This document shows positions 37,324 to 46,030 of a stretch of DNA of 64,000 nucleotides, in pieces (positions within the stretch are counted from its first letter, which is position 1; every line of letters begins with the position of its first letter). The notes under the pieces are model-generated. The model searched no databases. It was not told the origin of the DNA and saw nothing but the letters and a program-made list of their open reading frames with translations. This DNA comes from Neisseria musculi. GTDB taxonomy: Bacteria > Pseudomonadota > Gammaproteobacteria > Burkholderiales > Neisseriaceae. The DNA lies in the NCBI RefSeq assembly GCF_014297595.2, contig NZ_CP060414.2, forward strand, positions 1,736,001 through 1,800,000. The letters run 5' to 3'. The translations under genes and the position numbers were made by a program.

Positions 37324-37335
37324 ATGGCAATTTCC

Positions 37336-39453
37336 CTATTCTGCCGAATGCTGCGCCTTATGCTGCAAAGCTTCCATATCAATAACCCTGTCGGCCGACT
37401 CTATCGTTTCCTTGCGGTGCGCCACCATGATTTTGGTGATATTCAGAAACTTCAAATTGTTATTAATCGCCTGCTCGTTTTCCATATCTAGATGGCTGGT
37501 TGCTTCGTCGAGAAACAGGATTTTCGGCTCGCGGTAAAGTGCCCGCGCCAGAATAATCCGCTGCTTCTGCCCGCCCGATAGGGCGTTGCCCATGTCGCCG
37601 ATCAGGGTTTCGTAACCCATCGGCATCTGCATGATGTCTTCGTGTATCATCGCCATCGCCGCGCATTGCACGATTTTCTGCTGGTCGGGCGTTTCGTCGA
37701 AAAAGCAGATGTTTTCGCTGATGGAGCCGGCAAACAATACGTCATCCTGCGTTACGGTGCCGCTCAGGCCGCGGATAAAGCGCGGTGAAAGTTGGTGGAT
37801 GTCGTGGCCGTTAACCAGCACTTTGCCGGATTCGGGCGTAAGGTTGCCGATTAAGATATTCATCAGCGTGGTTTTGCCGCAACCCGAACTGCCGATAAAC
37901 GCCAGCGATTCGCCTTGTTTGATATTCAGACTGATGTTTTTCAAAATATACGGCTCGGTTTCGGAATAGCGGAATGATACATCGTCTACCACAATATCGA
38001 TATCGCCTTCGATCTCGGGGATATAGATTTCCTTGGTTTTTTCCGTTTCGGTTTCGGTAAGCACAATGTCGGCCAAACGCTCGGCATGCAGGCTGAGCAT
38101 GCGGATTTTGATGTATTGGTCGACCAACTCGCCCACGCGGGTTTCAAATTGGTTTTTATACGCCCAGAAAGCGGTCAGCGCACCAACGGTAAAGCCGCCG
38201 TCCAAGATTTTATCTGCGCCTAGGTAAACAATCAGAATACCTTCCACTCCAAATAAAAGCTTGTTGGCGAAATCGAAGATGTTGGTCAGCTTTTGTTTGG
38301 TTAAATCGGTATTCACCGTATCGACAAACAGGGTCATCCAAGAGCTGTGCCGCTGTTCGTTTTTTTCAAACAGCTTCACCGTGTGGATGCCACGCACTGT
38401 TTCCATAAAATAAGTGTTCTGCTTGGCATCGTGCACAATGTTTTCTTCGGTGGCGTTGCGCAACGGATAGTAAGCGGCAATGCGGATAATGATGTATAAA
38501 ACCAAAGCGATTAACACCACCGCGGTCAGCAGCCAACTGTAATAAAACATCAACACCAGCGTAAATACCGCCATAATGCCGCTCAACACGCTTTTGAAGG
38601 CGGTTGAGGTTAGAGTTTCCTGAATATTATCGATGGCCCCGAAACGGGAAATCACATCGCCCAAATGGCGCTTGGTGAAATAATCGGCAGGCAATTCCAG
38701 CAATCTTTTGAATATATTAGCTTTCCACTGCACATTCAGGGTGGTGGTCAGATGCATGTTTACCCATGCCTGCAACAGGCCGGTAAGCTGTTCCAGTATT
38801 TTGAGAAGACCGAAGCCCAACGCCAGCGTTATCAGCAAGTTTCTATCGGCGGTAACGATCACATGGTCGATTACCCACTGCATCAGAAACGGGCTGGCCA
38901 AGCCGAAAATTTCCAGCGCAAATGCCAACAGCAACACCTGCGCCAGCGAGCGCTTGATACCGGTAACACCCTTCAATAAAGTGAGGATTTTGATTTTCTG
39001 TTTGTCTTCTTTGGCCTCGAAATGCGTGTTCGGCCACAACTCCAGCGCAATACCGGTAAACTTCTGCGATACCTCTTCCTGCTTGATTTTACGCATCCCC
39101 ACAGCGGGATCCATAATCATAATGCCGTCTTTAACCACCTCTTTCAGCACCACAAAATGGTTTAAGTCCCAGTGCAGGATACAGGGCGTACGCAAATTGG
39201 GCAGATCATCCAAATCCAGGCGCAGGGCGCGCGAAGTCAGGTTCAAATCATTGGCGAAACGCACGATGTCGGCCAGTGTCAGCCCTTTTTGCGACAAAGA
39301 ATATTTCTGCCGCATCGTGCGCAAATCGCTATGGTAGCCGTGATAGCCGGCAATCGCAGTCAAGCAGGCCAAGCCGCATTCGGCGATTTCGGTCTGCAAA
39401 ACAATCGGCAGTTTTTTGCTGAAACCGAAAGACAAACGTTCTACATAACTCAT
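37336..39453 (-). CDS. C39-peptidase ABC exporter (PCAT) for double-glycine peptides
   Basis: 705 residues. Residues ~1-130 are a C39 peptidase: catalytic Cys in QTEIAECGLACLTAIAG, His in HWDLNHFVVLKE and Asp in IMDPA, so it should cut leaders after GG while exporting. A six-helix membrane domain follows (~165-435), then the ATPase with GSSGCGKTT (Walker A), LSGGQKQR (signature) and ILFLDEATSHLD (Walker B). It resembles CvaB of colicin V export. The start ATG 39453 overlaps the adaptor stop codon as ATGA, so the two are translationally coupled. Cargo is presumably the peptide array upstream. Confidence 0.93.
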   Translation of the reverse strand: MSYVERLSFGFSKKLPIVLQTEIAECGLACLTAIAGYHGYHSDLRTMRQKYSLSQKGLTLADIVRFANDLNLTSRALRLDLDDLPNLRTPCILHWDLNHFVVLKEVVKDGIMIMDPAVGMRKIKQEEVSQKFTGIALELWPNTHFEAKEDKQKIKILTLLKGVTGIKRSLAQVLLLAFALEIFGLASPFLMQWVIDHVIVTADRNLLITLALGFGLLKILEQLTGLLQAWVNMHLTTTLNVQWKANIFKRLLELPADYFTKRHLGDVISRFGAIDNIQETLTSTAFKSVLSGIMAVFTLVLMFYYSWLLTAVVLIALVLYIIIRIAAYYPLRNATEENIVHDAKQNTYFMETVRGIHTVKLFEKNEQRHSSWMTLFVDTVNTDLTKQKLTNIFDFANKLLFGVEGILIVYLGADKILDGGFTVGALTAFWAYKNQFETRVGELVDQYIKIRMLSLHAERLADIVLTETETEKTKEIYIPEIEGDIDIVVDDVSFRYSETEPYILKNISLNIKQGESLAFIGSSGCGKTTLMNILIGNLTPESGKVLVNGHDIHQLSPRFIRGLSGTVTQDDVLFAGSISENICFFDETPDQQKIVQCAAMAMIHEDIMQMPMGYETLIGDMGNALSGGQKQRIILARALYREPKILFLDEATSHLDMENEQAINNNLKFLNITKIMVAHRKETIESADRVIDMEALQHKAQHSAE

Positions 39454-40745
39454 CGCGTCAATTTCCCCGTGATACTGTAAAGCGGGTCGAGCACCCATTC
39501 ATAAAGCTTTTTACGCTCGTGCAGAATATCGGCCTCGGCCACCATACCGATTTGCAGCGGCTTTTCTTGGCCGTACACCTTTACCGTTTGTTTTGCCAAT
39601 TTTACCCTCACCAAATACACCGGCTCGTTTGCCTGCGCCTGTATCACCTGGTTTTCACTGTCGGCAGACACGCCGCCCAAACTGGCCAGCTCCTGCTTGC
39701 CCAAAGCCGTTTTCGCAATCGAAATAATCTTGCCCTCTGCATGGCCGAACTTTTGGTAAGGATAAGCCTGATAGCGCAGCACCACCCTATCGTTGGGATT
39801 GATAAACCCCGCAGCCCGGCTCGGCACATACAGGTTCGCCACCAACTCGGTTTTACCCGGCACAATACTCATCAACAATTGTGAAGGGCTAACCTGCTGC
39901 CCCACTTCCACATTGGAAGTGCTCACATAACCCGACTTGCTGGCATGAATCGTCTGCTCCTGCTGCAAATCCAGATTCAACCCTTCCTGAGTGATTTCCG
40001 ATACCGTACGGTTAAGCTGGCTAAGCTCCGTTTTCTGTTTGTCCGGTAAATCCGCCAGCGTCTGCCTTTGCGTATTCAATTCGCGCAACACGCCCGCCTC
40101 TTCCCGCTTGAGCGCATCCAACTGCGATTCCTGATTCAAATGCTCGTTTTCATATTCGATCATCTGCTGCTCGGAAATAAAGCCCTTTTTCAGCAAAGGC
40201 CGGTATTTTCCGATAATCTGCGCCGCCAGCTCCACCCGCTTGGCCTGCCCTTTAATCTGGCTGCGCACATCGGCCAACTGGCTCTCCAACCTCGCCACCG
40301 CATCGGTTAACGAGCGTGCCTCACCCTGCTGCACCTTTTTCTGCCGCTCGATTTCCTGCAACAGCATATCCTTCTTCATTTCCGCCTCTTTAACCAATCT
40401 GGCGCGCACATCTCCGCCGCCGCTGTATCTCGGCATAGAAACCGTCAGCAACTCGTCTCCCTGCTTTACATAATCGCCGTCATTAACCTTTTTGGTCGTT
40501 ACCACACCCGTATCCGGCGCATACACCCGCACCATCCCCGACACAGGCAAAAGCTGCCCCTCCACCGTGGTTTTGCGCGTATAGCTGCCGAAAAAAGCGA
40601 AAATAATCAACACAAACGCCCCTGCCGCCGCGCAGCCCGTTAAAAACACAAAAGAAAACGGCCGCGACAACACCACATGCCCCGTCCACTTATTCTTCTT
40701 CGCCTCGAAAATTTCGGGGCGGAAAAAACTGTTGTTTTCAGCCAT
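39450..40745 (-). CDS. HlyD-family periplasmic adaptor of the peptide exporter
   Basis: 431 residues from ATG 40745. N-terminal cytoplasmic stretch, one membrane helix (FSFVFLTGCAAAGAFVLIIF), a barrel/lipoyl half (VEGQLLPVSGMVRVYAPDTG), a long alpha-hairpin (residues ~110-260, KDMLLQEIERQKKVQQGEAR onward), the second lipoyl half (IHASKSGYVSTSNVEVGQQV) and a C-terminal beta barrel. It resembles CvaA. It bridges the ABC exporter to a TolC channel. The open frame to 40793 begins with TTG and is not preferred. Confidence 0.92.
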   Translation of the reverse strand: MAENNSFFRPEIFEAKKNKWTGHVVLSRPFSFVFLTGCAAAGAFVLIIFAFFGSYTRKTTVEGQLLPVSGMVRVYAPDTGVVTTKKVNDGDYVKQGDELLTVSMPRYSGGGDVRARLVKEAEMKKDMLLQEIERQKKVQQGEARSLTDAVARLESQLADVRSQIKGQAKRVELAAQIIGKYRPLLKKGFISEQQMIEYENEHLNQESQLDALKREEAGVLRELNTQRQTLADLPDKQKTELSQLNRTVSEITQEGLNLDLQQEQTIHASKSGYVSTSNVEVGQQVSPSQLLMSIVPGKTELVANLYVPSRAAGFINPNDRVVLRYQAYPYQKFGHAEGKIISIAKTALGKQELASLGGVSADSENQVIQAQANEPVYLVRVKLAKQTVKVYGQEKPLQIGMVAEADILHERKKLYEWVLDPLYSITGKLTR

Positions 40746-40942
40746 TTGCAATACCCGAAAGCCTAATAATCGAAAACTTGAAAAACCAAACAAGGTTCAG
40801 ACCGAAAAAAATGGGCATTGGTTCAAATTAATTTTTAAATAAGAAAAAGCATATGAAAAACGGAAAATCAAAGCAACAAAACTATACCTTATAAAAATAT
40901 TTCACTCATCACAAACCGCCTGCCGGAGAGGCAGATACATGA

Positions 40943-40972
40943 AGGCCGTCTGAAAAGTTTTCAGACGGCCTC
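40943..40972. terminator. Inverted DUS pair between peptide array and exporter genes
   Basis: GAAGGCCGTCTGAAAA faces its complement; it would stop peptide-gene transcripts before the adaptor gene, so the exporter probably has its own promoter in 40746-40942, an AT-rich stretch with no clear boxes. Confidence 0.7.
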
Positions 40973-40978
40973 CGATAA

Positions 40979-41062
40979 CGTAGGGTGTGCGGCAAAGCCG
41001 CGTACGCGACATTACCAAGGTTCAAAACAGTGTGTACGCGCCCGAGGGCACACACCTACGCT
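40979..41062. repeat. Long inverted repeat GGGTGTGC...GCACACACC
   Basis: CGTAGGGTGTGCGGCAAAGC then CGCGTACGCG faces GTGTACGCGCCCGAGGGCAC then ACACCTACG across ~25 bases. It looks like a small mobile repeat inserted beside the array. Confidence 0.5.
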
Positions 41063-41094
41063 TGCTTACTAAACTTGCTTAATACATATATGTC

Positions 41095-41261
41095 TTAACC
41101 AAGCCAACGTGCAAGGCCATAACCAGCAGCAAAGCCAGCGCCACCACCTGCAATTATTCCTCCCACAATTGCAACAGCAGGAACAACTCCACCAGAAATA
41201 TTTTTAAATCAATATTTTACAGCTCATACGCATTTTTGAAATTTGTTACACTTGAAGTCAT
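41095..41261 (-). pseudogene. Double-glycine microcin precursor, inactivated
   Basis: Starts at ATG 41261 after a strong AAAGGAAT site: MTSSVTNFKNAYEL then a TAA stop, and later the frame shifts by one in a run of five A. Reading across both lesions gives NIDLKNISGG followed by VVPAVAIVGGIIAGGGAGFA and AGYGLARWLG to the stop at 41095. The intact ancestor would be a ~25-residue leader plus a ~30-residue glycine-rich hydrophobic peptide. Two independent lesions argue that the gene is dead, not a sequencing slip. Confidence 0.75.
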
Positions 41262-41288
41262 AATATAATTCCTTTATCAAAATTTGAG

Positions 41289-41408
41289 TTACTTTAGACT
41301 ATTCAATCCTACAACAATTCCAGCTAAGAAGCCTACAATAATTGCAACGCCTATAGCTATTGAAGCTCTATATTCATAACATTCTTTAATAAAATTAGAT
41401 TTAGGCAT
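41289..41408 (-). CDS. 39-residue single-helix membrane protein, possible immunity
   Basis: MPKSNFIKECYEYRAS followed by one hydrophobic helix (IAIGVAIIVGFLAGIVVG) and a short NSLK tail. No double glycine before the helix, so it is unlikely to be cargo. It lies between two microcin-type genes on the same strand. The ribosome site is weak. Immunity function is a guess from size, topology and place. Confidence 0.5.
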   Translation of the reverse strand: MPKSNFIKECYEYRASIAIGVAIIVGFLAGIVVGLNSLK

Positions 41409-41468
41409 AACATAGACCCAAAAAATAGAACTAATATACTAAAATTGAAATTTTAGCATTTATTCAGA

Positions 41469-41612
41469 TTATCCCTTGGTTCTATTTACATGGTTCAACC
41501 CAACGGAAATACCACCTGCAAATTCAGCAGCAGCACCCCACAAGGCCCAAATAGCAACAGGAATGACACCACCTGTTACTTTATCCAACTCAAAGTGATT
41601 CAACTCTTTCAT
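41469..41612 (-). CDS. Double-glycine peptide precursor, hydrophobic 32-residue product
   Basis: 47 residues. Leader MKELNHFELDKVTGG has the textbook pattern of class II microcin leaders (hydrophobic at -4, -7 and -12, GG at -1/-2). The mature part begins VIPVAIWALWGAAAEFAGG and ends KG; it is hydrophobic with two Trp and GG/AA small-residue steps, suited to membrane insertion. The AGTATGATT spacing gives a weak ribosome site. Confidence 0.75.
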   Translation of the reverse strand: MKELNHFELDKVTGGVIPVAIWALWGAAAEFAGGISVGLNHVNRTKG

Positions 41613-41832
41613 AATCATACTCCTAATATAAAGTTAAAGTTTAAACAAGCTCTCAATTATTTTTGAGAACTTGCCTATTTGACTCCGTAATTTAAAATTT
41701 GTTCTACTTTTATTTATTTTTTTTGCAAATTTTATTTATTTATTGTTTACTGATATGTCAAATTAAATTAGATATTTCAAATAGTTAATATATAAATTTA
41801 ATAATATGGATTTATATCCGGTTATAAAATAT
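41613..41832. other. AT-rich spacer inside the peptide array
   Basis: Strongly AT-rich DNA without a supportable gene; it probably carries the promoter for the 41469-41612 peptide gene. Confidence 0.4.
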
Positions 41833-41868
41833 ACAGGCCGTCTGAAAAGGTTTTCAGACGGCCTGTAC
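41833..41868. terminator. Inverted DUS pair inside the peptide array
   Basis: TACAGGCCGTCTGAAAA and its complement, ~17-bp stem with a 2-base loop, 20 bp after the stop of the 29-residue peptide gene on the minus strand. Confidence 0.75.
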
Positions 41869-41888
41869 AGTTAGAAACAAAGAGAAGG

Positions 41889-41978
41889 CTACCAAGGCCA
41901 GCGTATTTTGGGAACACACCCGCCTTCCCCAATTCCGCCTGCTGCCTTTACCAGATCTTTTCTACTGATTTCTCTCAT
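41889..41978 (-). CDS. Double-glycine mini-precursor, 14-residue product
   Basis: 29 residues in all: leader MREISRKDLVKAAGG and predicted product IGEGGCVPKIRWPW. AAAGGAG lies 9 bases before the ATG. The product has a single Cys and a WPW end. It is far below normal gene-calling limits, but leader, ribosome site and company make it credible. Confidence 0.7.
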   Translation of the reverse strand: MREISRKDLVKAAGGIGEGGCVPKIRWPW

Positions 41979-42046
41979 TTAAATGCTCCTTTCAATTCTT
42001 TGAAAATGCTGTTTGGGCAAATATTTTGCCAAGCCCGAAATTTCTC

Positions 42047-42154
42047 TTACCGGCTCCAAGCAAATCTTTTCCATTTCCAAAAACCCGGGGGAGGAAGGGG
42101 AAGAAAGCGGCCTCCTGATACTTGGTTCAATTCATTTTGATTCAATATTTTCAT
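42047..42154 (-). CDS. Double-glycine mini-precursor, Trp/Pro/Arg-rich 20-residue product
   Basis: 35 residues: leader MKILNQNELNQVSGG and predicted product RFLPLPPPGFWKWKRFAWSR, with net charge about +5, three Trp and a PLPPP segment. It resembles in composition the Trp-rich host-defence peptides such as indolicidin. The ribosome site GGAG lies 8 bases upstream. Confidence 0.75.
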   Translation of the reverse strand: MKILNQNELNQVSGGRFLPLPPPGFWKWKRFAWSR

Positions 42155-42291
42155 GTCGATACTCCTAAATAAAGACTGTGAAAGAAATATTAAAAATTGC
42201 TGCTCTAACAGTAACAATACACTAACAATAGCAGCGGCTATTTCAAATAGAAAAATTTATTTGCTTTAAGGATAAACTCCCTTGGCCGATG

Positions 42292-42411
42292 CTATCTTAA
42301 CCACCATGGGAAAATCAGATTTTGCTTCTGCAAACGCAAAATGTTCTCCCATGAAAAGAGATTGGTTCCGCCGGTTACATTCTTGAGCTCTCTCACATTC
42401 AACTCTTTAAT
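42292..42411 (-). CDS. Double-glycine precursor with ATT start codon
   Basis: Reads IKELNVRELKNVTGG and then a 24-residue product beginning TNLFSWENILRLQ and ending FPWWLR, with stop TAG at 42292. The leader is a near copy of the MKELN leaders of its neighbours, but its first codon is ATT. AAGAGG lies 6 bases upstream of that ATT, where the start should be. A GTG at residue 6 would give a 10-residue leader. It may use ATT poorly or be silenced by a start-codon mutation. Confidence 0.55.
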   Translation of the reverse strand: MKELNVRELKNVTGGTNLFSWENILRLQKQNLIFPWWLR

Positions 42412-42443
42412 AAATAGCCTCTTTTCTAAAATAAATTAAATTA

Positions 42444-42635
42444 TCAATACCGCGAATGCTTAAACGCCAAAGTAGTGATATTGCTGCCTCCGGTGGGTGT
42501 GGAAAGCTTTACTTTACCGCTCAGCAAATCCTGCCTGTTCGGACTGTCTACTACATTGCCGTCGGCGATGCTGCGGAAAAACACCACTCCGCCGCCCGAT
42601 ATGTAACATTCTTCGGATTTTTTCAATTCCTTCAT
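42444..42635 (-). CDS. Double-glycine precursor, 48-residue product
   Basis: 63 residues from ATG 42635, behind AAGGAG. Leader MKELKKSEECYISGG, then a mature part GVVFFRSIADGNVVDS...KHSRY that is polar, Ser/Thr/Gly-rich and without Cys. The frame extends upstream to 42821 over the neighbouring gene, but the internal ATG has the ribosome site. The product resembles none of the others in the array. Confidence 0.75.
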   Translation of the reverse strand: MKELKKSEECYISGGGVVFFRSIADGNVVDSPNRQDLLSGKVKLSTPTGGSNITTLAFKHSRY

Positions 42636-42721
42636 TATCAAACTCCTTTCCATCTGCTTGAATATGAAGCCGCCTACATCTAAATAACATAGTTTCAAAC
42701 AGTCTCTAAATTTATCAATAC

Positions 42722-42904
42722 CTACATCAATTCCGGCCTGGGAATCGGTCTTGGCAAAGGAATTTCCCGCCCCGGGGGAATACGCGGGTTTCTGATAATA
42801 ATCGGCAGTTTGTCCAGCCAATCTAATAATGATGGCGGATAGGATAGGGAAACCAATCCGCCTGCAACTTGGCTGATTTCATCATTTCGAATAAGCTCTT
42901 TCAT
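42722..42904 (-). CDS. Double-glycine precursor, proline/arginine-rich product
   Basis: 60 residues from the second of two adjacent ATGs (42904; the first is 42907), with AAGGAG 6 bases upstream. Leader MKELIRNDEISQVAGG. The 44-residue product starts LVSLSYPPSLLDWLDKLP and ends with a Pro/Arg pattern, RIPPGREIPLPRPIPRPELM, that recalls insect proline-rich antimicrobial peptides. No Cys. Confidence 0.75.
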   Translation of the reverse strand: MKELIRNDEISQVAGGLVSLSYPPSLLDWLDKLPIIIRNPRIPPGREIPLPRPIPRPELM

Positions 42905-42996
42905 CATAATCTCCTTCTAGTTAGTTAAATATCCAAACCGGATTTGCCAATTTAATTGTTTCATCACAAACACTCTCCAAAAAACGGCCTTGTTTG

Positions 42997-43239
42997 TTAT
43001 GGTGCAGGTTTTGAATACCGCCCGTGAAGTTTGGCTGAAAACAAAGTAAACACAGCAGAAACAGCAATCGTTGCAAACAACGAGCAAAACGGAACGGCAA
43101 AACGCCCCATAGCTGCAACAGAGTCAATTTCAAAATAAGCGGTAAAATGTCGGCATAATAAAAACCATACCGATAAAAATAAAAAAGATCGCCATAGATA
43201 TTTTGTGCAAACGAATTGGCGGGAGCCGGCATTTTCCAT
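42997..43239 (-). CDS. 80-residue small membrane protein, possible immunity
   Basis: Two hydrophobic segments (WRSFLFLSVWFLLCRHF and FAVPFCSLFATIAVSAVFTL) with a basic C-terminus. It follows the glycine-rich microcin gene on the same strand with a hairpin between. Size and topology resemble small microcin immunity proteins. No ribosome site is evident, so confidence is limited. A shorter overlapping frame (MAIFFIFIGMVFIMP...) raises the chance that a frameshift has occurred. Confidence 0.45.
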   Translation of the reverse strand: MENAGSRQFVCTKYLWRSFLFLSVWFLLCRHFTAYFEIDSVAAMGRFAVPFCSLFATIAVSAVFTLFSAKLHGRYSKPAP

Positions 43240-43277
43240 AAAAATTCATGGGATAAACTCTTGTTACCAAGCCGGCA

Positions 43278-43307
43278 ATCAGCTTCCGTTCTACAACGGA
43301 AGCTGAT
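43278..43307. terminator. Hairpin between microcin gene and possible immunity gene
   Basis: ATCAGCTTCCGTT and AACGGAAGCTGAT form a perfect 13-bp stem with a CTAC loop, 11 bp past the microcin stop codon. The T run lies on the plus-strand side, so on the minus strand it may serve for processing or attenuation. Confidence 0.55.
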
Positions 43308-43318
43308 CTCTTTTTGGC

Positions 43319-43585
43319 TTACCAGTCGTTCCAACCAGCAACAAAACCTCCGATGGCACCTAGGGCTCCGAAGCCTATACCACCTACTGTTGCACCTACG
43401 CCTGCGCCTGCGGGTCCGCCGGTAAAAAAGCCTATTGCTCCTCCGCCGGCTGCGCCAACAGCAGCTCCCGCACCAGCACCGTTAGCCGCACTACCGATTG
43501 CATCTGTCCATCTGCCGCCACCTGAAACAATATCAAGCTCAGACAAAGATAATTCATGCATATTGTTTAAAGTTAATGTTGGCAT
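43319..43585 (-). CDS. Glycine-rich class II microcin precursor (colicin V-like)
   Basis: 88 residues. AGGAGG lies 6 bases before ATG 43585. The leader is 23 residues and contains a complete shorter leader, MHELSLSELDIVSGG, inside it. The ~65-residue product starts GRWTDAIGSAANGAGAGAA and continues with GxxxG repeats (FFTGGPAGAGVGATVGGIGF) to a GWNDW end. This is the composition of colicin V and other membrane-targeting microcins. Best candidate for the main toxin of the locus. Confidence 0.85.
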   Translation of the reverse strand: MPTLTLNNMHELSLSELDIVSGGGRWTDAIGSAANGAGAGAAVGAAGGGAIGFFTGGPAGAGVGATVGGIGFGALGAIGGFVAGWNDW

Positions 43586-43621
43586 TTCAAACCTCCTATA
43601 ATTGACTACAATTTAAATTGA

Positions 43622-43819
43622 CTACAATTTAAGATAATGACAGATAGCCCAATATGAAAAGAAACTAAATCCTAAGAATGTCAGAAACGATACTGAAAAA
43701 ACTACCGTGCTTTTCCATGCAAACCCATCGGTAAAAGACTCATAAAGCCAGGCTAACGGTGTTGCTACGGTAAAGGCAATAAAAAGATACATACATACCA
43801 AGAGAATGGTTTTAGTCAT
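43622..43819 (-). CDS. 65-residue two-helix membrane protein, possible immunity
   Basis: MTKTILLVCMYLFIAFTVAT and VVFSVSFLTFLGFSFFSYWA are two membrane helices joined by a polar loop (YESFTDGFAWKS). GGGAACG lies upstream of ATG 43819. It sits between the 43936-44109 peptide gene and the glycine-rich microcin gene, so it could protect against either. No family recognised. Confidence 0.6.
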   Translation of the reverse strand: MTKTILLVCMYLFIAFTVATPLAWLYESFTDGFAWKSTVVFSVSFLTFLGFSFFSYWAICHYLKL

Positions 43820-43935
43820 AATCGTTCCCATCCATAAGCAAGTCAACGCAGAATGTAAGACACAGCCGTACACGCGGTATCAGGATTCAGATATTGTGGC
43901 GTACCCTATAATCACACATCCTATCGTTTATCAAA

Positions 43936-44109
43936 TCAATTATTACGTACAGCATCACGGGCGTTTTTCCAAGCATCGCTCAGATTGTTACCAGCTTCTG
44001 AAAAACCGTTGCCGATTTCTCCCCAAAAGTCTTTCCAGTCTTTGCGGAAATCATCAAAGTTGTAACCGCCGGCTACTTGTTCCATTTCATGTTGGTTCAG
44101 CTTTTTCAT
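43936..44109 (-). CDS. Double-glycine precursor, 42-residue amphipathic product
   Basis: 57 residues: leader MKKLNQHEMEQVAGG, product YNFDDFRKDWKDFWGEIGNG and FSEAGNNLSDAWKNARDAVR plus NN. GGAGATGATT gives a ribosome site. The product has aromatic and acidic residues at helical spacing and could form an amphipathic helix. It is the first gene of the array on this strand. Confidence 0.75.
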   Translation of the reverse strand: MKKLNQHEMEQVAGGYNFDDFRKDWKDFWGEIGNGFSEAGNNLSDAWKNARDAVRNN

Positions 44110-44530
44110 AATCATCTCCTTAAAAATAAAGTATTAAAAATCAAAAAACAGGCAACCCGTTAATCAGATGCCTTGGTTTGTATGATGATTTTTGTTTGAC
44201 TTTGTTCGTTAGATTTTTTTAGTTTCTGCAAAAAGAAAATCAATTAATTTACATGTCGAAGAAATAATAAAAATACAACAGAATATATAATCAACAATGA
44301 TTTATAGTTTAAATCACAGCATGACGGGCGATACGACATGCGGGCAATCCCATGTAAATGTAAAACCGAAAACTTGTAAATTATTTTCTAAAAAATATAT
44401 TTTTTATTAAATTTGAACTGAGTTACATATTCAATCCTTCGTATTACATTTAGATTACCCGAAAAAATTGAACTATTTCGAGAGAAAATGCTCTAAAATA
44501 TTTGCTCGTATTCCATAATCATTAATTCCT
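44110..44530. promoter_or_regulatory. Divergent promoter region of peptide array and tolC-like gene
   Basis: 421 very AT-rich bases between divergent start codons. A 37-codon frame beginning ATGATTTATAGT is present but has no ribosome site or leader. Many TATAAT-like words occur, so no single promoter can be called. Confidence 0.45.
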
Positions 44531-45853
44531 ATGCCGAAATTAAAACCCCTGCCGTTGATTTTTTCGCTTGCGTTTATCGCACCTGTTGCCAACGCTTTTA
44601 CACTGCTGGATGCCTGGCGGGCCGCTCTGGATTATTCCGCCGATTATTCCGCTGCCAAACACGAGCGCGATGCGGAATCGGAGAAGAAAAATCAGGCACG
44701 GGCAGCGCTTCTGCCGCAAGTTAATGCCAATGCAAGCTACCAACGACAGCCCTATTCTCTTTCGTCCACAACCAAAAGCTACGGCTGGAACGTGCAAGCC
44801 ACGCAGGTTTTGTTCGATAGAACGCGCTTTGCTCAATATAAGCAAGGCAAGATTGCTGCCGAAATGGCAGATTCACGCTTAGACGGCAAGGAAGACCAAT
44901 TGAGAATGGATGTGGCGAAAGCCTATTTCGATATTTTGCTGAATAAAGACAAACTCGCGGCCATCAATGATGAAAAAGCTGCTTATGCCCGCCAGCTTGA
45001 GCGGGCGCAGGAAATGTTTAAACAAGGTGCAGCCACCATTTTGGATACCCATGAGGCCAAATCAGGATACGATGCGGCTCTGGCAAAAGAAATCGATACC
45101 ATGACCCAATTGCAAGTGGCTGAAAACACTTTGACCAATCTCACCGGCTTGGATCCCGGCTCAATCAGCCCGGTGAAAAACGATAAGGCTTTATTCGATT
45201 TGATCGGCGAAACGCAAGAGCAGGAATGGCAGGCTTTGGCCGAACTGCACAATCCAGAATGGCAGTTGCAGCGCAAAACGCTGGACGATGCAACCCAAGC
45301 GTTAAAGGCCGCCAAAGGCAGCCGCCTGCCCACACTAACTGTTAACGGTGGTTATCAAGACAACTACAACACTTACCGCACCCAAGATTATTTCGGTAAC
45401 AACTTTGATGTAGACTACCGCAGCAAAGGCGGTATGCTTAATGTACAACTGAGCGTGCCGCTATTTAGCGGCGGTAAAATTTCCAGCCAGATTCGCGAAG
45501 CCGCCTCACGGGAAATGCAGAATAAAGACCTGCTCACCGCCACCGAACGCAAAATACGGTTAGCAGTAAGGCAGGCTTATCAAACCACCCGCAGCAGTAA
45601 AATCCAAACGCTTGCCCAACAACGCCTTTTGGAAACCAACCGCGCCAAACTGGAAGCCACCCAACTGGGACGGCAGGTAGGAGTTCGTAACAATTTGGAA
45701 GAAACCCAAGCACAGCAGGAAAAAGCCGATGCAGAACAGAAACTTGCCGAAGCCAAATACACCTATATCCAGGCTTATTTGCAATTGCTGCAAAACGCCG
45801 GAGTGTTGGGGGACGAAGAGAAAATAAGCAAAGTAGGCACAATGCTGTTTTAA
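44531..45853 (+). CDS. tolC: TolC-family outer-membrane channel
   Basis: 440 residues: signal peptide to ~residue 22 (VANAFTLLDAW), then two OEP repeats (residues ~25-215 and ~230-430) with the coiled-coil segments typical of TolC trimers. The equatorial and barrel strands contain SYGWNVQATQVLFD and MLNVQLSVPLFSGGK. It lies divergent from the peptide array and completes a type I secretion set with the adaptor and ABC exporter. It may also serve efflux pumps. Confidence 0.9.
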   Translation: MPKLKPLPLIFSLAFIAPVANAFTLLDAWRAALDYSADYSAAKHERDAESEKKNQARAALLPQVNANASYQRQPYSLSSTTKSYGWNVQATQVLFDRTRFAQYKQGKIAAEMADSRLDGKEDQLRMDVAKAYFDILLNKDKLAAINDEKAAYARQLERAQEMFKQGAATILDTHEAKSGYDAALAKEIDTMTQLQVAENTLTNLTGLDPGSISPVKNDKALFDLIGETQEQEWQALAELHNPEWQLQRKTLDDATQALKAAKGSRLPTLTVNGGYQDNYNTYRTQDYFGNNFDVDYRSKGGMLNVQLSVPLFSGGKISSQIREAASREMQNKDLLTATERKIRLAVRQAYQTTRSSKIQTLAQQRLLETNRAKLEATQLGRQVGVRNNLEETQAQQEKADAEQKLAEAKYTYIQAYLQLLQNAGVLGDEEKISKVGTMLF

Positions 45854-46030
45854 ATTTAAAAGTTATAATCTTAACTATTACCCATCTTTCCATTTATTTT
45901 CAGGCAGACTTATGAATATAAATACAACTCTTGTCTTTTTGCCTGCAAAACCGAAAAAACCTTACAAACTATGCGGCAAGAGTGTGTTTACGCTACAATC
46001 GCTCCAACCACCACCAGCCGTGCAACGCAT

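Follow-up and report, generated by a model that had tools for sequence, protein, structure and literature searches.

We analysed a window of 64,000 nucleotides (64 kb) from Neisseria musculi (contig NZ_CP060414.2, positions 1,736,001-1,800,000 of a 2.93 Mb genome, designated G000 below), in which an island carries a peptide exporter of the C39-peptidase ATP-binding cassette (ABC) type together with an array of small genes encoding peptides with double-glycine (GG) leaders (Table 1). The two genes flanking the island are adjacent in the sister species G012, being separated by 8,640 bp in the window and by 53 bp there; in a further relative, G011, the island occupies the same place, and five other loci with a short-peptide array have other neighbours, as judged by eye. 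The GC content is 38.1% in the array compared to 53.5% in the window, and the repeat words that we take to be DNA uptake sequences (DUS) occur at 0.46/kb in the island (4 copies) compared to 1.63/kb outside it (90 copies). From a look at their sequences, the genes around the island are presumably nrdR, ribD, a flavin reductase gene, a MarR-type gene and a gene for a penicillin-binding protein; in G011, what we likewise take to be a transposase-like open reading frame (ORF; L042:13292-14296) is found between the exporter and the presumed flavin reductase gene.

Table 1. Features of the island, with positions counted from the first nucleotide of the window. DUS, DNA uptake sequence; E, expect value; SD, Shine-Dalgarno sequence; dN and dS, nonsynonymous and synonymous substitutions per site; G and L numbers denote genomes and loci.
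Feature	Position	Strand	Basis
Island	37329..45968	.	Flank alignment; 53 bp at same place in G012
C39-peptidase ABC exporter, 705 aa, intact	37336..39453	-	Pfam PF03412, PF00664, PF00005
HlyD-type periplasmic adaptor, ATGA-coupled to exporter	39450..40745	-	Pfam PF13437/PF16576
Broken GG-peptide gene remnant, core like L044/L046 peptides (ALPA... family)	41098..41270	-	Core matches
Membrane peptide without GG leader, 39 aa, possible immunity or partner gene	41289..41408	-	C-terminus similar in G043
GG peptide #8, class IIb cerein 7B-like	41469..41618	-	NCBIfam TIGR03949 E 6e-7, above cut-off; L044 relative
DUS inverted repeat with T-run, terminator-like, splits array	41830..41869	-	Repeat and DUS word positions
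GG peptide #7, 14-aa product IGEGGCVPKIRWPW	41889..41978	-	Weak leader score 6.6; two L042 relatives
GG peptide #6, Trp/Pro/Arg-rich product	42047..42154	-	Leader score 39.4; TIGR01847 above cut-off
GG peptide #5, possibly decayed	42292..42411	-	Leader score 32; TIGR01847 above cut-off
GG peptide #4, strongly conserved	42444..42635	-	In 3/46 genomes searched; dN/dS vs G011
GG peptide #3, Pro-rich	42722..42907	-	SD by eye; dN/dS vs G011
GG peptide #2, long Gly-rich ColV-like	43319..43585	-	Leader score 30.1; G043 homologue
Candidate immunity gene for #2, 65-aa membrane protein	43622..43819	-	Homologue beside #2 homologue in G043
GG peptide #1, amphipathic helix, sole invariant member	43936..44115	-	7/46 genomes; dN/dS; moment 0.61
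TolC-type outer membrane channel, divergent	44531..45853	+	Pfam PF02321

The exporter combines C39, ABC_membrane and ABC_tran domains, and a motif check found C26, H99, D115, Walker A, the signature and Walker B all to be kept; we take their roles to be those familiar from C39 peptidases and ABC proteins. It aligns over nearly its full length with solved chains named ABC-type bacteriocin transporter, ComA and HlyB. The best NCBIfam model, the NHLP bacteriocin exporter (NHLM; TIGR03796), reached 485 bits against a cut-off of 853, and the remaining NCBIfam exporter models shown were likewise under their cut-offs. Because the stop codon of the adaptor and the start codon of the exporter overlap as ATGA at 39450-39453, we place the exporter start at 39453 and not at 39498. 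The exporter, the ATGA-coupled HlyD adaptor and the divergent TolC channel claimed in the first-pass annotation are borne out by the Pfam domains, the catalytic and ATP-binding motifs and the sequence overlap, and the locus has the C39-ABC exporter, adaptor and outer membrane channel expected of a class II microcin system.

The same holds for the small genes on one strand, with one leader type and unlike products; their number, given as at least nine, had to be revised to eight GG-leader genes and one broken remnant, so that the original observation stands in all but the gene count. Again as in class II microcins, the precursors are smaller than 10 kDa and carry a double-glycine leader. Seven of the eight genes start with ATG; #5 lacks ATG, GTG or TTG at the expected place, with ATT in the position where the others have ATG, and a Shine-Dalgarno (SD) sequence precedes most genes of the array by eye. 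The core of #1 after the GG motif has 42 residues and is amphipathic, with a charge of -2.2, and that of #2 has 65 residues, 23 of them Gly; the #2 homologue in genome G043 adjoins a membrane ORF homologous to the 65-residue membrane protein of the window, which has no family match. The core of #3 has 44 residues (11 Pro) behind a leader longer by one residue, that of #4 has 48, that of #5 has 24 with no relative in the comparison of cores (51 peptides from seven loci), and that of #8 has 32. Peptide #6 has a core of 20 residues with 3 Trp, 4 Pro and a charge of +4.8; it resembles a peptide of locus L042 (genome G011) at E 3e-9 with the leader included, and the core alone does not join the two. 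For #7, two relatives in L042 were found (E 2e-10 and 1e-9 with the leader; z 6.6 and 10.1 with the core only). The bacteriocin leader model TIGR01847 is matched above cut-off by #5, #6 and #8, and the class IIb model TIGR03949 by #8 and one L042 peptide. Taking the window and six related loci together, 47 of the 51 cores have at most 48 residues, and these contain 5.5% Trp and 8.2% Pro, compared to 0.8% and 3.7% in five larger proteins of the window. In the remnant, core matches were found at 41098-41217 (E about 1e-5), and no open frame links this core to a leader start. The 39-residue membrane peptide (41289-41408) has no family match either; its C-terminus, VGLNSLK, is much like an L044 peptide core and a G043 ORF, and it could be an immunity gene that arose from the core of a bacteriocin.

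A profile of 15 leader residues, built from 18 leaders of four other loci, gave seven matches with a score of at least 6 in the 64 kb, all inside the array, six of them scoring 25.9-39.4; #3, with its longer leader, was missed. In 40 Markov shuffles of the 5 kb there was 0.1 match per shuffle, and the best shuffled score was 12.7. Estimates of dN/dS, from pairs that are short and with some dS values saturated, were 0.12/1.08 (against G011) and 0.18/1.83 (against G021) for #1, 0.13/0.29 (G011) for #3, and 0.014/0.25 (G011) and 0.20/2.36 (G021) for #4; orthologues of these three genes are under purifying selection, as judged from these alignments. For #2, comparison with G043 only gave 0.29/0.72, the 65-residue membrane protein and its G043 homologue gave 0.43/3.9 with dS saturated, and one pair from G006 and G040 (VMI) was near neutral at 0.34/0.43. 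The possibility that the array consists of spurious ORFs was rejected on the leader profile and the selection results. A promoter scan was uninformative (13 found, 10.8 expected from shuffles), Rfam gave no match between 36 and 48 kb, and of the eight products searched against PHROGs the best match linked Gly-rich #2 with a family whose function is unknown (E 1.3e-4), the others giving 0.019 or weaker, or no match.

The distribution of the system was addressed in 46 genomes of the genus Neisseria, that of the window and 45 others. Exporters of at least 66% identity over nearly the full length are present in 11 of the 45, at 12 loci, three of which have one stop inside the matched stretch; exporter fragments are found in four further genomes. 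Adaptor relatives of 54-99% identity are encoded in 12 of the other genomes (one with an internal stop) and as split pieces in a 13th, and TolC relatives in 10 of the 45 (E <= 1e-60). At the same threshold, a sample of 399 genomes from the order has the adaptor in 28, of which 25 lie outside the genus at identities of 42% or less. The gene order TolC, peptide region, HlyD, ABC is shared by nine loci including that of the window; at four loci HlyD and ABC are further apart and there is no TolC within the fetched stretch. Peptide #1 is found in seven genomes, which are exactly those with the short-peptide form, and the GG-peptide candidates (a few of them without ATG) number 8 in G000, 17 in G011, 4 in G021, 8 in G006, 5 in G040, 7 in G043 and 2 in G008. 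By core similarity the 51 peptides fall into 27 families, 16 with a single member, and the #1 family alone is represented in all seven loci; no peptides from L049, L050 or the four TolC-less loci enter this count, nor does an L043 ORF (8102-8248) judged spurious, and one of its merges (L045_8640 with the ALPA group) looks wrong. In the comparison with G011, identity amounts to 95.2% for the exporter block (3.8 kb), 94.5% for TolC and 88.6-91.2% for four flanking genes, and despite the exporter DNA identity of about 95% the array can be aligned only piecewise. This comparison shows strong turnover of the array between species. Two pairs of paralogs share about 200 nt of 5' sequence up to the GG codons, with unlike cores; averaged over all paralog pairs, upstream similarity is near background, with 43% identical codons at places with the same residue.

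The best full explanation of the island, in our judgement and on what its sequence encodes, is probably a multi-peptide class II microcin-type system. We are highly confident of the anatomy and of co-export: the C39 domain would cut each precursor after the GG motif, and the tripartite machine would release the cores outside the cell. That the main function is the killing of other bacteria is a reading to which we give slightly better than even chances, and antagonism is favoured because the pair of #2 and its membrane protein is also present in G043, because of the turnover, and because a bacteriocin has been demonstrated for a Moraxella relative. Peptides #2 and #8, long and Gly-rich or class IIb-like, would be the most likely bacteriocins, acting on related bacteria, with small membrane proteins serving as immunity for products of this kind; the invariant amphipathic #1 may be a core part of the system, a helper or a lytic partner. 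The very short Trp/Pro/Arg-rich #5-#7 would form a repertoire that changes quickly; they would probably act on membranes, and in many cases would have no immunity gene of their own. The content of the array would shift as whole units are gained or lost, natural transformation being their probable route, between conserved ends made up of TolC plus #1 on one side and the exporter on the other.

The first-pass interpretation is upheld in part, for a unit of class II microcin type that has a C39 type I exporter of its own and unlike products behind leaders of one type. Its description as cassette-like fits the presence and absence of units, the empty site and the dispersed copies; as swapping of cores behind one leader it is suggested by the two paralog pairs only and did not show in the all-pair average, on which grounds general swapping was dropped. 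This counts against the interpretation, as do several other points, and the arsenal that it names is a putative one. Membrane ORFs that are possibly immunity genes occupy at most three places for eight peptides in the window, and in G011 at most two doubtful candidates stand against 17 peptides; the scan covered ATG ORFs of at least 38 residues with a hydrophobic stretch, so that other types of immunity would escape it. In G043, by contrast, membrane ORFs are about as many as peptides. In pneumococcal genomes, an average of 4.29 bacteriocins is accompanied by 6.74 putative blp immunity genes (PMC4860687). Peptide #1 is acidic, there is no standard start for #5 and the ninth gene is broken. The leader of #7 scores only 6.6, which is within reach of chance, and the case for this gene rests on its G011 relatives. 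The selection comparison with G011 or G021 covers three of the eight genes (#1, #3 and #4), and the site in G012 would fit an island that was never present as well as one that was lost.

The gonococcal Nap peptides also count against killing as the main function: these GG-leader peptides from a 38% GC island are reported to promote autolysis of gonococci and not to kill competitors (PMC11798529). The products of the array might similarly be directed at the producer or its kin, with cationic and amphipathic peptides promoting autolysis and DNA release in the producing population. The array likewise has 38% GC and few immunity-like genes, #6 carries its charge of +4.8, and #1 is strongly amphipathic. 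We consider this unlikely nonetheless, as Nap peptides depend on the C39 peptidase NapP and a FapF-like channel and the array on a C39-ABC type I system, the #2 pair and the class IIb match suit bacteriocins, and turnover suits antagonism. A further reading, to which we give tentative credence at a low level, would take the short Trp/Pro-rich products not for bacteriocins shielded by immunity genes but for a novel type of secreted repertoire that acts on the producer's kin in lysis, DNA release or recognition. It would comprise an invariant amphipathic peptide and, behind a fixed leader, a hypervariable set of peptides of 13-30 residues, all served by one exporter; transformation would carry its content between species, and the exporter would also be a hub for scattered precursors.

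A role as density-sensing pheromones, foremost for invariant #1, seems improbable to us. Signalling has been put forward for meningococcal GG polypeptides (PMC2784325), one member is conserved in all seven loci, and the BlpC pheromone model has matches, far under its cut-off, to #2 (E 0.058) and to an N. wadsworthii peptide (L033:7986-8177; E 0.001); yet neither match belongs to the #1 family, many unlike products are hard to account for as signals, and inspection by eye, with no domain search, of the larger flanking ORFs at the short-array loci revealed no receptor-kinase pair. The cyanobacterial peptides EbfG1-4 are GG peptides needed for biofilm formation, and they are secreted efficiently only if PteB has its C39 cysteine (PMC4997328), which makes matrix or biofilm peptides conceivable here; one would expect conservation of structural parts, whereas most products of the array are very short, and they are diverse and subject to rapid replacement, and we regard this account as quite improbable. 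Least probable would be a decaying relic in which most short ORFs are unexpressed: the start of #5, the broken ninth gene and the exporter fragments in four other genomes of the genus are what it would predict, but exporter, adaptor and TolC are intact, dN is well below dS for #1 and #4, and SD sequences are visible.

The exporter of the multi-peptide system probably also serves precursors elsewhere in the genome. A second search used a profile of 40 leaders, six of them from the window itself, and is no independent test; it gave 11 matches genome-wide, of which seven belong to the array and the other four are outside it (E 1.8e-4, 0.009, 0.037 and 0.25). These four lie at L081 about 3010, L082 about 1970-2010, L084 about 1500 and L083 about 1495; the leader is followed by a Gly-rich core in three of them and by a short GA-type core in the fourth, and one has a transposase-like ORF and a small membrane protein as neighbours. 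Searching the whole genome with PF03412 identified the array exporter and a standalone peptidase of 222 residues, and no second C39-ABC exporter, and the scattered precursors may be exported in trans by that of the array. The standalone peptidase (L059:5477-6145, - strand) lies near a protein of 148 residues (L059:7666-8112, - strand) with a signal-peptide-like start, an internal GG/GA-like site and then a Gly-rich part; by its gene content this is possibly a nap/Fap-like unit.

What appears to be a sister subsystem is marked by a gene for a JmjC_2/ROXA-like oxygenase, full length in eight of the 46 genomes, always within about 6 kb of the adaptor or exporter family, without a match in the short-array loci, and without a match at E <= 1e-10 in the N. 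musculi genome. Such loci are L051:5519-6673, L052, L047, L049, L050 and L053 within the genus, and also L075, L076 and L034. The GG precursors beside the oxygenase gene are long, with 13 related C-terminal tails such as GNNYDGTDY in five of the six Neisseria loci scanned (none in L053; G004 and G020 lay outside the scan); a tail of this kind is found once in an A. baumannii plasmid, and none in Moraxella pLQ510 or A. pittii L034, both of which have the oxygenase. This arrangement suggests a microcin-like peptide modified by the oxygenase, and none of the papers found for microcins together with JmjC concerns such a subsystem, by title and start of abstract.

The short-peptide array is a new form, of which we found no description in open-access titles and abstract starts among the matches listed; units with several GG peptides are already known from the meningococcus. 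There, five GG polypeptides and two secretion units have been described (PMC2784325), and the units of strain 8013 share with the island a C39-ABC exporter and adaptor, several GG polypeptides and their occurrence in Neisseria. They differ in that the polypeptides are small and Gly-rich and the TolC-like NMV_0625 is elsewhere by gene number (PMC2784325); the island has its own TolC, the invariant #1 and many very short Trp/Pro-rich products. A relative matching the exporter at 69% lies in two chromosome-sized records labelled N. gonorrhoeae in a plasmid collection (H1, H2); the gene table for these records, which is incomplete, lists no feature under it. According to a review, the meningocin genes NMB0097/NMB0098 were needed for growth inhibition, with products that it gives as unidentified, and no Neisseria bacteriocin is characterised (PMC9263626); the locus family supplies named candidates for these bacteriocins, which have long been sought. 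The mcbABCI locus of Moraxella catarrhalis plasmid pLQ510 also has HlyD, a C39-ABC exporter (55% identical) and a GG peptide, and a bacteriocin activity, with its immunity gene, has been demonstrated there that requires the exporter; it differs in having one bacteriocin and one immunity gene (PMC2761928), both downstream of the exporter, and a JmjC_2 gene upstream. The gonococcal nap island is similarly AT-rich and encodes several cationic GG peptides, but uses NapP and the FapF-like channel and is autolytic (PMC11798529); the words "ABC transporter" are absent from the main text of that paper, and nap-type export was rejected for the array, in which Pfam finds C39 fused to ABC and a TolC-type channel.

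In the array we probably see a changeable set of bacterial weapons or messengers, as far as gene content can tell. Enterobacterial class II microcins of the MccV type combine a GG leader with a C39-ABC exporter, a membrane fusion protein and TolC. The first-pass remark that such systems usually carry one or two peptides is, we presume, fair for enterobacterial microcins, but multi-GG sets are known in the meningococcus. Microcin-bearing E. coli assemblies have one to five matches each, in a figure that counts the best match per contig only (PMC9746304). The streptococcal blp/pnc loci resemble the island in their variable bacteriocin set, and differ in being Gram-positive, pheromone-regulated and richer in immunity genes than in bacteriocins (PMC4860687). 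With up to 17 GG-peptide candidates per exporter and the turnover described above, the arrays would match, on the Gram-negative side, the blp diversity of pneumococci, and would also be a source of very short Trp/Pro-rich peptides. We take the GG leaders and the single C39 exporter to be further points of likeness to the blp/pnc loci.

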